A stretch of 22,029 bases of DNA from contig CALSCQ010003157.1 of the NCBI GenBank assembly GCA_943704525.1, positions 1 to 22,029 on the forward strand, read 5' to 3'. This document shows, piece by piece, positions 6,795-11,390 of the stretch (position 1 is its first letter; each line of letters begins with the position of its first letter). A program made the translations under genes and the position numbers. Under the pieces are notes generated by a model. The model made no database searches and had not been told where the DNA came from. It saw only the letters and a program-made list of their open reading frames with translations. The stretch is from Pigoraptor vietnamica (taxonomy: Eukaryota > Opisthokonta > Filasterea).

Positions 6795-8862
6795 ATGAAG
6801 TGGGTCTCGCGGCAGCGCATGTCGTGTGTGTGTGTGCGTATGCAGGCCTCCTTCTCTCTCTATCTCGCTCTTGTCTCCCTCTCGCGCTGTCGCACACACA
6901 CACCCCACTGCGACATTCTGCGAAGCTCTCCTAATGTGTGATACACCTCCAGGATCAACCTGGACGGCCTGCTGGTCTACTTTCCGTATGACTACATCTA
7001 CCCGGAGCAGTACCAGTACATGCGCGAGCTCAAGCGGACCCTCGATGCCAAGGTAGAGTGGTGCGCGTGTGCGTGTGAAGGAGGTGGGGCTTGGGGAGGG
7101 AGGGGGAAAGCAATGCACCCGCGTAGGTGTGCCTGTTCTTAAGGTGTGCCTCGATAGACCGATGCTAATTTGCGGTGGCTTTGTCGTCGGTAGGGCCACT
7201 GTGTGCTGGAGATGCCTTCCGGCACCGGAAAGACTGTCTCGCTCCTGTCGCTCATTGTGTCCTATCAGATGGTGAGTGCCATGGCAAGTGTGTGGGTGGT
7301 ACGCGCTTGTGTTGAACGCATTGATTGTGCGCTTGTACACATGGTGTGTGGGTGTGTGGGTGTAGGTGTGTATTTGTGTGTAGGTGTGTATTTGTGGGTG
7401 TGTGGGTGTGGGTGTGTATTTGTGTGTAGGTGTGTATTGTTGTGTGTGTGTGTGTGTGTGTGTGTGTGTGTGTGTGTGTGTGTGTGTGCGTGCGCGTGTG
7501 CTTGTCATGGTGTGTCTGTTAAACACGCTTCTGACCACTGCTTCATTGGGCATTCGCAGGCCAACCCACAAATCGGAAAACTTATTTATTGCTCTCGCAC
7601 TGTTCCCGAAATCGAGAAGGTGGTTCAATAGTCGTCGTCACCATGCGCTTTGCGTAACTCGGGACATGTGTCATTGTAACATATGGAAGGATGCCAGATA
7701 TCTCTTGACAGCAGAAAGGTCGTTCGGTGTTGTTGCGTGCGGTGCTTGGTCTCACGTCGTGTGTGGCCGCGCAGGTGCTGGAGGAGCTCAAAAATCTTAT
7801 TGAGTTTATCAAGAAGGAGCGAGGCGCGGACATGCCCAAGTTCCTCGGTCTCGGCCTGACGTCACGAAGGAACCTCTGCGTGAACCCAGAGGTGCGCCAG
7901 TGGCCTCCCTCTGTTGTTCCATGGCTGCGTACCAAAGTCACGTGAAGTGTCGCTTTGTGTTAGCACATATCTCGCGTGGAAGAGCCCTTTCTGCTGTCTC
8001 GGCGTCGCTCTCGGTGTCGGGTCGTGGGCGAACGGGCCGTTTGCGTTCTCACAGTTGGCCCGTGTGCGAATTGCAGGTGAGCCGCGAGCGCGACGGGAAG
8101 CGCGTGGATGCGGCGTGCAGGTCGATTACGGCGTCGTGGGTGCGCGCCAAGCACGAGCAGGACGCGAGCGTTCCCGTGTGCTCCTTTTTTGAGGTGTGTG
8201 CGAGGGATCGGCTTGCGTCCAGTTTGTGTATGTCGGTTGCAAAGCACTGGTGCCGTTTGTTGGTGTGGATGCGTAAGTTGCCGCGCGTGTGTGTGCGAGC
8301 AATTTTTTCAGAAAGTCCGTCCACGATCGAAGTGGACACCACTCGCCCTCCTGTCTTCTCCTCTCTCGAATACACTCAATGTGCTCTCTCTTTTCTGCCC
8401 CCTTTGTCGTCGCCAACCGCACACAGGGCTTCGACACGAGCGGCCGCCAAGCGATGCTGCCTTCGGGCGTATATTCGCTTGACGACATCAAAGCGTTTGG
8501 TGGCGGTCGCGGGTGGTGTCCCTACTTTCTCTCGCGACACATGGTGCGTGGACAGTAATGGAACATAGAGCAACGGACTCGTTCCTTTTGTCCGTCCCGC
8601 TCGCGGGCAATGACTCACTGCGACGTCTTCCTGCTTATCAACTATTCACTCTCTCGGGCTCTTGTTGTGTTTAAGCTCGCCTTGTCCTTGCGTACATTGA
8701 CGTACCGCTTTTGTCTCTCCCCTTTCGGTGCCTCGCAGATTACGTTTGCGAATGTGGTCGTGTACAGCTATTACTATCTGCTCGATCCGAAAATTGCCGA
8801 CCTTGTTTCGAAGGAGCTTGCGAAGGAGTCCGTTGTTGTTTTCGACGAGGCTCACAACATTG
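6795..8862 (+). CDS. ERCC2: XPD/ERCC2 helicase, N-terminal third only
   Basis: Eight exons (6795-6799, 6953-7052, 7194-7271, 7560-7619, 7775-7891, 8077-8193, 8427-8543, 8739-8862) encode exactly residues 1-239 of XPD, the 5'-3' DNA helicase of TFIIH used in nucleotide excision repair and transcription initiation. Visible parts are [20 protein letters not shown], Walker A SGTGKT (Lys48), motif Ia [12 protein letters not shown], the four Fe-S cysteines C116, C134, C155 and C190 (same numbers as human), and the DEAH box at 234-237. Exon 1 is only ATGAA. The last donor (GTACGT) leaves phase 1, as human Asp240 would need, but the rest (most of the Arch domain, motifs III-VI, about 520 residues) is absent from the window. 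TEDC1 sequence follows after a GT repeat. As drawn the gene cannot make a working helicase; see findings. Confidence 0.95.
7343..7490. repeat. TG-rich minisatellite leading into (TG)24
   Basis: Inside XPD intron 3. Degenerate copies of a GTAGGTGTGTATTTGTG-like unit (7363-7440) run into a pure TG run at 7440-7488. Long Cys-Val open frames across it are repeat artefacts. Confidence 0.9.
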
Positions 8863-8894
8863 GTACGTGGTGTCTAGTGCTCGACGCGCGCGCG

Positions 8895-9020
8895 GTGTGT
8901 GTGTGTGTGTGTGTGTGTGTGTGTGTGTGTGTGTGTGTGTGTGTGTGTGTGTGTGTGTGTGTGTGTGTGTGTGTGTGTGTGTGTGTGTGTGTGCGCGCGT
9001 GTGTGTGTGTGCGCGCGCAT
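8895..9020. repeat. (GT)~49 microsatellite with GC-rich ends, 126 bp of alternating purine-pyrimidine
   Basis: Pure GT from 8895 to about 8993, then alternating GC/GT blocks to 9020 with no break in purine-pyrimidine alternation, which is classic Z-DNA-prone sequence. It sits between the last XPD exon and the first visible TEDC1 exon and is the probable site of an assembly join or a real deletion. Confidence 0.95.
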
Positions 9021-9165
9021 CTCCCGTGTGCGTGAGTCTGTGCTGAGTGTCTGTGTCTGTGTCTGTGCGTACATGCTGCGAGTGTGCCAAACGTCAGTTT
9101 GTGTGCCAATAGAGAGACTTCTGAGCAATTCGTCTGTTTTCCCCTTTCTTTTTCTGTTTTCGCAG

Positions 9166-11390
9166 ACTTCCCCGCTGCTCTTCGCGCTGCATCGCCTGTT
9201 CGTCGTGGAACAGACGTGCGGACTTCACACAGATGCGCCCATTGAAGCTCTCGCGGTCGTTTGGTCCAAGGAACCCATCGGCGACGGTACTTTAGCCTAC
9301 AATGTTACAGCGAGAATGGCCCACACTTCCTGTGCGCTCACTCCGTTGTTGTTCTATGTTGCGACCCACCGTAATATGGCCGACGCACGTGCTCACCCGT
9401 CGTGTCCGTGTGTTGCGACCTGCAGGCCTTGCCACTGCGTTTGTGCGCGCTTCCCTGTGGCGTTACGGCTACCGTGCGGCGCGAGTGTATGACGGGGATG
9501 GCATCGGCAGTCGGTGAGCCATTGGCATTTGTATCCATCTCTCTATCGCTGCTTACTTGCCTCTCACGCCGCTCCAGTGTTTCATATCACAGTTCATGCT
9601 GGACACACGTGCATGCACGCCTCTACAGTTGAATCGAGTCTCACATCTTTTTGCCCCTTGCAGCGACATCCTACTTGCGTTTGCGTGGTTCCTCGCACGC
9701 TCCGATTTCTTCCGCTGCCACGCTCTCAGGGTGGCCACACTGCGCCCTTCTGACGCGTCTCATTCGAGCGCACCTCAACCCGCACTGTCGTCGAAGCCTA
9801 GCGGGAAACCCCTCACGCGCACCGAGTCGGCAAACGCGGCGAAGAAGAAGAGAGAGGACGAGCGCGTAAACGTGGGATCGCTCCCTCCGTTTGGAGACGA
9901 GTTTGGCGTCACTCTGGCGGATCGTGCGAGGGCGGCGTCATTAGCGGTGGCGTTGGTGGATGAGCTGTCGAAGGGAATGGAGGGGCGGTGTGCGCGACTG
10001 GGAGACAGCGATGGGGCGGTGGGTGTCGGCGCTCTCTGTGTATTGCGACAACAGGCGGAGAGTGTGTGTGCGGGGCATAGGAGACTGCGCTACGGGTAGT
10101 GTGCATTGACTCATTTGGAAGGGTTGAAGAGCGCACGTGTGTCGAGAGCCGTTCTCACAGTTGTTGTATCACTCGATGCGCTGCATACTTCAGGACGAGT
10201 TTCGTTTGACGACGCTTACCCTACTCAATGGCCACGTCAAGGCGTCCGTGCGGCGCGCCAACATGCTGCGAAGAGAGAAGGGGCGGCTGGTCGAGTCCGT
10301 CCAACGAAAGTACGCCCACGCGCGCTCTGCGTCCCTAAGCGTGCGGGAGAGTGGCGCCTTGATTGGCATCGATCAGACCATCGGGCCCGCGTGTGCACCG
10401 ACGGTGGCTGAGGCGATGTTGCTTGCGGATGCGACGCTTGCAAGCGCCACAATGGCCGCGATGAAGACGCTCGAGAGTGCCCTTGAGCGTGTGAGCGCAA
10501 GCAGGGCGGTCGCGCGTGCCTTCTTTGCGTGGATGGTGAGTACACGCCTGTCTGTGTGTGCGCGTGTGTTGGGTGTACGTGTGCGCGCAGCATACGTTTG
10601 AGTGCCCGTTTGTTACAATACGCACGTGGCGGTGGAATTCGCCGATGTTACTTTGGGTTGATGGCTGAATTCGCCCGTGCCAATGTTCATTGTGCGTGCA
10701 GCAGCCAATAGCGAACGAGTGGTGCGGAGAGAACGGCGCCGAGGTAACAGCGGACAGCGACAATGTGGGTGATGGCGACTTTTACTCAAGCGGTGTCACG
10801 TCGTGCTCTCTCTCCCCCACACAACGCCACGCTCCCAATTCATTGCCACGCCGTTGGGCTAATTTGACGCAGCAGATGCTCCAGAGTGCTTCGGCAGCGG
10901 CGCCTTCTGGGCGGCGAAGTTCCGCGAAAACTGCGGCAAGCGACGGTGGGTTCCCGCGCGCGTGTTATCTCTAATAGACTGTGGAGTCGATGGACAACCG
11001 TCCGTGGTACCCGGCCTAACTGTCAGCATCTCAATTGAGATATGCGAGAAATTGGATGGAAATTGTCAAGTCGATGTTGACGCTACCCACCCCCTCTCCC
11101 TCACAGCCATCGCGCCCTTCCGGTGTCTCCCAAACCCGCACCCTTTTGTCCAGCAGACGGGCTTCGTCCTCGCCGCAGAAAGGGGGAGTGAGCAGGCGTC
11201 CGCCACCGTGCGACAGCCTCGCCACCACCGCGCACCGCAGCTGCGCATCCACAGCGCCATTGCGAGCCTCGCACGCGACATTGAACGGCTCGAGGGCGAG
11301 ATTGAGGCGGACTGGGCGCAGTACCGCGCGCTTCTCGACGCAGCAGCCGCGCGCGTGCCGCAGGGCGTCGTATGCATCGAGCTGGGGTGA
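9166..11390 (+). CDS. TEDC1: TEDC1-like tubulin epsilon/delta complex protein, 5' end missing
   Basis: Six exons (9166-9286, 9426-9513, 9664-10018, 10161-10535, 10702-10945, 11107-11390) encode 488 residues with no start codon. In human cells TEDC1 works with TEDC2, delta- and epsilon-tubulin to stabilise triplet microtubules of centrioles. From memory of human TEDC1 (C14orf80), matching blocks occur in order: TSPLLFALHRLF, then SRDILLAFAWFLARSD (human SRELLLALSWLLARG), PPFGDEFGVTL (human PLGDEM), a long helical region with Arg/Lys repeats, FFAWM, and a C-terminal coiled coil (LARDIERLEGEIEADW). Insertions of low-complexity Ser/Ala sequence make it longer than human. The end of exon 3 (GCG before GTGGGT at 10018) is the least certain junction. 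The fifth exon has a tandem GCAGCAG acceptor, so one Gln may be optional. An N-terminal piece of perhaps 40-60 residues is missing. Confidence 0.75.

Follow-up and report, generated by a model that had tools for sequence, protein, structure and literature searches.

A 22,029-bp stretch of DNA from the filasterean Pigoraptor vietnamica, called the window below, makes up an entire contig (CALSCQ010003157.1 of assembly GCA_943704525.1; C1303 in this analysis), and no flank exists beyond it. On its plus strand it carries the first eight exons of a gene for XPD (ERCC2/Rad3), a subunit of TFIIH that is essential in known eukaryotes, followed by a GT tract and a gene resembling TEDC1 (tubulin epsilon and delta complex protein 1). 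XPD breaks off in the middle of the gene and the TEDC1-like gene probably starts without its beginning, and the junction between the two is the subject of this analysis. The features are collected in Table 1.

Two apparently partial genes at a GT tract

Table 1. Features on both sides of the junction and at the start of the window (positions are those of the window).
Feature	Position	Strand	Description	Basis
XPD (ERCC2/Rad3), exons 1-8	6795-8862	+	residues 1-239; stops just past the DEAH box, in phase 1	spliced translation, profile and structure matches
XPD, single exons	6795-6799, 6953-7052, 7194-7271, 7560-7619, 7775-7891, 8077-8193, 8427-8543, 8739-8862	+
Beginning of XPD intron 8	8863-8894	+	donor GTACGTGG	sequence
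Perfect (GT)49G tract	8895-8993		99 bp; presumed site of a false join	Tandem Repeats Finder gives 8895-9011
Intron-like stretch	8994-9165	+	pyrimidine tract and CAG acceptor at its end; in-frame ATG at 9073
TEDC1-like gene	9166-11389	+	first exon(s) probably missing	PF14970 match, exon frames
TEDC1-like gene, single exons	9166-9286, 9426-9513, 9664-about 10095, 10194-10535, 10702-10945, about 11107-11389	+
Perfect AC tract at contig start	1-102		102 bp; tracts like this often mark contig ends in this assembly

The XPD part is well formed up to its last base. All eight exons are followed by a GT donor, exons 2-8 are preceded by AG acceptors, and splicing gives 239 residues and one additional base without any stop codon. 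In a comparison with solved structures (PDB) the best matches were the XPD chains of TFIIH, which we take to be the human protein, with residues 1-239 aligned at 369 bits (E 7e-110) and 166 of the 238 aligned residues identical (70%), followed by 8rev_A (named CHL1) with 278 bits, RAD3 with 264 and FANCJ with 67. The rad3 profile TIGR00604 scored 286 bits against a cut-off of 247 and covered profile positions 2-233 of 706, which places the gene in this subfamily, and the DEAD_2 profile reached 153 bits. Like human XPD, the encoded protein has a Walker A motif SGTGKT, a DEAH box and four cysteines aligned with those of the human protein, which are presumably the iron-sulphur ligands. Unlike other XPD (ERCC2/Rad3) proteins, it lacks the last part of about 520 residues, to which the C-terminal helicase domain belongs and which is missing from the contig.

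The genes on the two sides are unrelated and the simple repeat between them is a perfect run, as would fit an artefact caused by a tandem repeat. If XPD exon 8 is spliced to the exon at 9166, 26 more residues are read before a TGA. These results agree with an earlier note on this DNA, made from the sequence alone, which had described a good donor in phase 1 after XPD residue 239, a TGA within about 25 codons of the next exon in the XPD frame, a tract of about 49 GT units between the genes and an AC run of about 100 bp at the start of the window.

The same note had assigned the exon at 9166 to TEDC1, in phase 0 and without the N-terminus of the protein. Its phase could be confirmed, as the exon has an open frame in phase 0 that carries on, with matching phase, through the second exon and from 9664 onward. 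The TEDC1 identity is weaker: the open-frame model of the whole gene matched PF14970 (TEDC1) with an E of 5.1e-5 and 24.0 bits, below the curated cut-off of 27.4, at profile positions 68-165, and a shorter model matched positions 1-35 with an E of only 0.28. Like TEDC1, the gene shows these matches in the correct order along the model; unlike TEDC1, it scores under the curated cut-off and its first exon is probably missing. The model used in the searches contains one residue read from the acceptor AG at 9662-9663, and at the border between exons 3 and 4 there is no phase-compatible donor near 10096. Against solved structures it gave a single match at chance level (E 1.3). A search with PF14970 in 1,395 contigs (32.5 Mb), which include the window and form the set used for all searches below, gave no match; none was obtained in its controls either, so this search was insensitive.

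The loss of the N-terminus, which the earlier note took as given, is a probable one. Upstream of 9166 the frame is open as far as a TAG at 8875. The sequence before the exon resembles a pyrimidine tract with an acceptor, and a start at the in-frame ATG is possible. Judged from human TEDC1, presumably only some 40-50 residues would be lacking.

The missing part of XPD in the contig set

XPD residues 240-760 were not found in a six-frame search of the 1,395 contigs with TIGR00604, in which all 18 candidates were scored, and a search of the same contigs with PF13307 (all nine candidates scored) gave no C-terminal part of XPD. Both profiles recovered the C-terminal halves of three paralogues on the contigs C484, C533 and C548. 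A further search with PF06777 (HBB) gave no match in the contigs and none in its controls, so it is uninformative. A C-terminal helicase domain (Helicase_C_2) belonging to XPD was thus seen neither on the contig of the window nor elsewhere in the set, and a single XPD N-terminal region was detected in it.

All three C-terminal halves had FANCJ as their highest-scoring PDB chain, and the TFIIH XPD chain (8ebt) reached 81, 97 and 95 bits with C484, C533 and C548, respectively. We rejected C533 and C548 as the second half of XPD, as their best chain is FANCJ and their XPD scores of 97 and 95 bits compare with 369 bits for the XPD N-terminal part; presumably they are RTEL1-like and DDX11-like, respectively, an assignment for which the structure matches contained no deciding chain of these names. 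C484 is FANCJ-like with 255 bits to FANCJ, and like the other two it does not fit as the continuation of a gene with 70% identity to human XPD. A nested arrangement, with exon 9 and all later exons of XPD following downstream of the TEDC1-like gene, received no support from this contig, on which the rad3 search gave no match beyond 8873. Using positions 8560-9800 of the window as query, we found no second copy of the unique flanks of the junction among the best 40 of 112 candidates, which were the ones scored; the 67 other matches from these 40 all fall into query positions 318-528 (window 8877-9087), representing the tract and its low-complexity border.

All 64 contigs whose size was seen are at least 10,000 bp long, so that the searched set evidently lacks shorter ones and is an incomplete genome. 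Because of this, the absence of the XPD 3' part says little. The first 239 codons of XPD span 2,068 bp, and at the same rate the missing 520 codons would take about 4.5 kb; a missing piece of an estimated 5-6 kb, bounded by unresolved repeats, would be under the 10-kb floor. A full XPD copy, which should exist according to the earlier note, was not found among the 1,395 contigs, a set evidently short of the full genome, and the absence of the remaining XPD should not be taken as gene loss.

XPD is not the only gene of its family in this state. C548 and C533 each open with a run of C, followed by only the C-terminal half of a RAD3-family gene, and their N-terminal halves were not detected in a search whose power is limited by short exons. 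Thus the loss of half a gene is common in this contig set. Together with XPD, these make three genes lacking a half among the four of the RAD3 family that were observed. As a separate observation on the set, C25 is exactly 10,000 bp and C235 exactly 15,000 bp long, as if the contigs had been size-filtered and some of them cut at round lengths, and the first 300 bases of C1355 are all N.

Simple repeats in the assembly

In order to describe where the contigs break, a contig edge was counted as lying in a simple repeat if it falls into a homopolymer of at least 6 or a dinucleotide run of at least 12. This applies to 25 of 39 sampled contig starts (the fortieth, C1355, has N at its start and was excluded), to 23 of 37 if C1 and C3, which had been chosen for known tracts, are left out, and to 11 of 20 contig ends. 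Of the interior positions of the window, 1.07% lie in such a repeat. The assembly therefore breaks at simple repeats far above chance in the sampled contigs.

We also analyzed the length of the GT tracts. Exact (GT)n windows on both strands number 10,870 for n=40, 4,806 for n=48, 4,222 for n=49, 3,661 for n=50, 3,131 for n=51 and 315 for n=58. The differences between these counts give 584 tracts with at least 48 units, 561 with at least 49 and 530 with at least 50, corresponding to 23 tracts of exactly 48 units and 31 of exactly 49 units (98-100 bp) and thus no pile-up; a collapse at a k-mer of 99 was rejected on these numbers. Among the listed tracts of at least 58 units 17 of 24 have exactly 58, and among the nine interior tracts listed for C17-C56 with a length of 98 bp or more, six measure 114-116 bp. 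Perfect GT runs are frequent up to about 116 bp with a steep drop beyond. The assembler's limit is therefore near 116 bp and the class of 98-100 bp is not special, which contradicts the idea of the earlier note that about 100 bp is this limit. Perfect GT and AC tracts pile up at 114-116 bp with checkable flanking genes being continuous, and their lengths look truncated at about the k-mer size.

Origin of the junction

From these data we consider it likely that the junction is an assembly artefact, either a chimeric contig or a collapsed stretch. An assembly error is the best explanation because a single spot next to a dinucleotide tract interrupts both genes, which are unrelated, and the sampled contigs of this assembly tend to break at simple repeats. 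In the real genome XPD would go on after intron 8 with about 520 further residues, and one or more 5' exons of its own would precede the TEDC1-like gene as seen here. The assembler would have switched between two GT tracts, leaving one in intron 8 of XPD and resuming at another in the first intron of the TEDC1-like gene, whereby the stretch between the tracts would be dropped if the genes neighbour each other, or else two unrelated places would be joined. We infer that the switch would have occurred inside the GT tract itself and that the missing XPD part may sit on a contig too short for the searched set. Such a false join would, with good probability, explain the apparent mid-gene breaks inside intron-like sequence, the incompatible phase, the repeat-prone assembly and the other half-genes at least cost. 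The collapse of two microsatellites proposed in the earlier note is thereby kept as far as an artefact is concerned, without its argument from a limit at about 100 bp.

Several results weigh against this conclusion. With 99 bp the tract lies off the pile-up at 114-116 bp and in a class that is not enriched, and its length therefore gives no sign of collapse. Among the best 40 of 112 candidates of the search with the junction region there was no site joining either unique flank to another partner. The strongest point against an artefact comes from control tracts. Of 20 tracts fetched, one (C10) turned out to lie at the edge of its contig; the other 19, which measure 98-128 bp, are interior, and 13 of them were drawn from a list of tracts of at least 116 bp, so that the sample leans long. 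Their exons were chosen by a small codon score (1,187 training codons, with some pieces still containing flanking intron), and Pfam was run on the six continuous-looking gene pieces only. In these six of the 19 cases a single gene is continuous across the tract, which each time lies within an intron: a thiamin pyrophosphokinase (115 bp), a TKL-type kinase (115 bp), a P4-ATPase (98 bp), a NEK-type kinase (116 bp), RtcB (128 bp) and VPS45 (116 bp). For VPS45 only three residues of the Pfam match stand before the tract and continuity is partly taken from the known protein; for RtcB, also judged against the known protein, the searched piece omitted one exon and the next exon stands just beyond the tract. 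The 13 remaining tracts, judged by eye only, show no clear misjoin, and breaks are possible among them: two ankyrin loci (L101 and L118) and an EGF/kinase locus (L114) are weakly consistent with continuity and the rest are uninformative, with the judgement of L101, L102, L111, L113 and L117 being based on the exon listing alone. A misjoin at the XPD locus would be an exception to this behaviour. As the six informative control tracts are crossed correctly, a tract of about 100 bp alone does not imply a misjoin, and this gives a yardstick for the assembly: checkable GT tracts near 100 bp are crossed correctly and many contigs end in repeats, and a tract alone is insufficient to call a false join.

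The correct joining of all six informative control tracts also speaks for a genuine event in the sequenced cells, in which two GT tracts were rearranged or the DNA between them was deleted in one haplotype or in one strain of a mixed sample, with an intact XPD located on another haplotype or contig, and GT tracts are prone to recombination. We regard this as unlikely, as it requires a break within an essential gene, no second copy of XPD, whole or partial, was detected in the 1,395 contigs, and nothing positive is in favour of it or of a split gene. The evident incompleteness of the set, with all 64 sizes at or above 10 kb, would allow a full XPD gene to be outside of it, in which case the eight exons could come from a truncated second copy of XPD, of which the 5' end was placed beside the TEDC1-like gene. 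This is very unlikely, however, with only one XPD N-terminal region detected and with the XPD part being undamaged and all its splice sites intact, whereas an unselected copy would lose them in time.

Trans-spliced split genes are known for a few protist genes, and XPD might likewise be divided into two trans-spliced transcription units with a break in intron 8, just past the DEAH box, and with a 5' unit directly adjoining a centriole gene. The clean donor at the end of exon 8 and the lack of a continuation in the 13 kb that follow on the contig would be in line with it, but a separate 3' half was not detected in the 1,395 contigs, nothing else noticed in the window points to split genes, and no title among those returned by a literature search on XPD with trans-splicing or split genes concerns a split XPD. 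We therefore find this highly improbable; if the junction were true, an essential TFIIH helicase encoded in two pieces would be a remarkable exception. A true fusion transcript of XPD and TEDC1 is hardly conceivable: although the two splice sites, a donor following 8862 and an acceptor preceding 9166, are of good appearance, phase 1 would meet phase 0 and the TGA would follow after 26 residues.

Thus the junction is most likely a matter of annotation and not new biology, and gene prediction at this locus might yield an XPD that is truncated or fused. Two further genes were observed in the window. The one at 3634-4635 on the plus strand, which contains FDSWRRSQPDYREKV, is presumably TOM20, and the one at about 12000-16700 on the minus strand, which has G runs some 20 bases long near 12941 and 15150, we take to be an isoleucyl-tRNA synthetase.

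Assembly errors of this kind have been described for short-read genomes, in which repeats that exceed the k-mer in length stay unresolved and get collapsed (PMC6868369). Unlike in the tandem-repeat-induced errors outlined there (PMC6868369), the tract at the join is with 99 bp below the pile-up and the checkable tracts of 98-128 bp are crossed correctly. In line with them, the tracts of this assembly pile up at 114-116 bp, and many of its contigs end in simple repeats.

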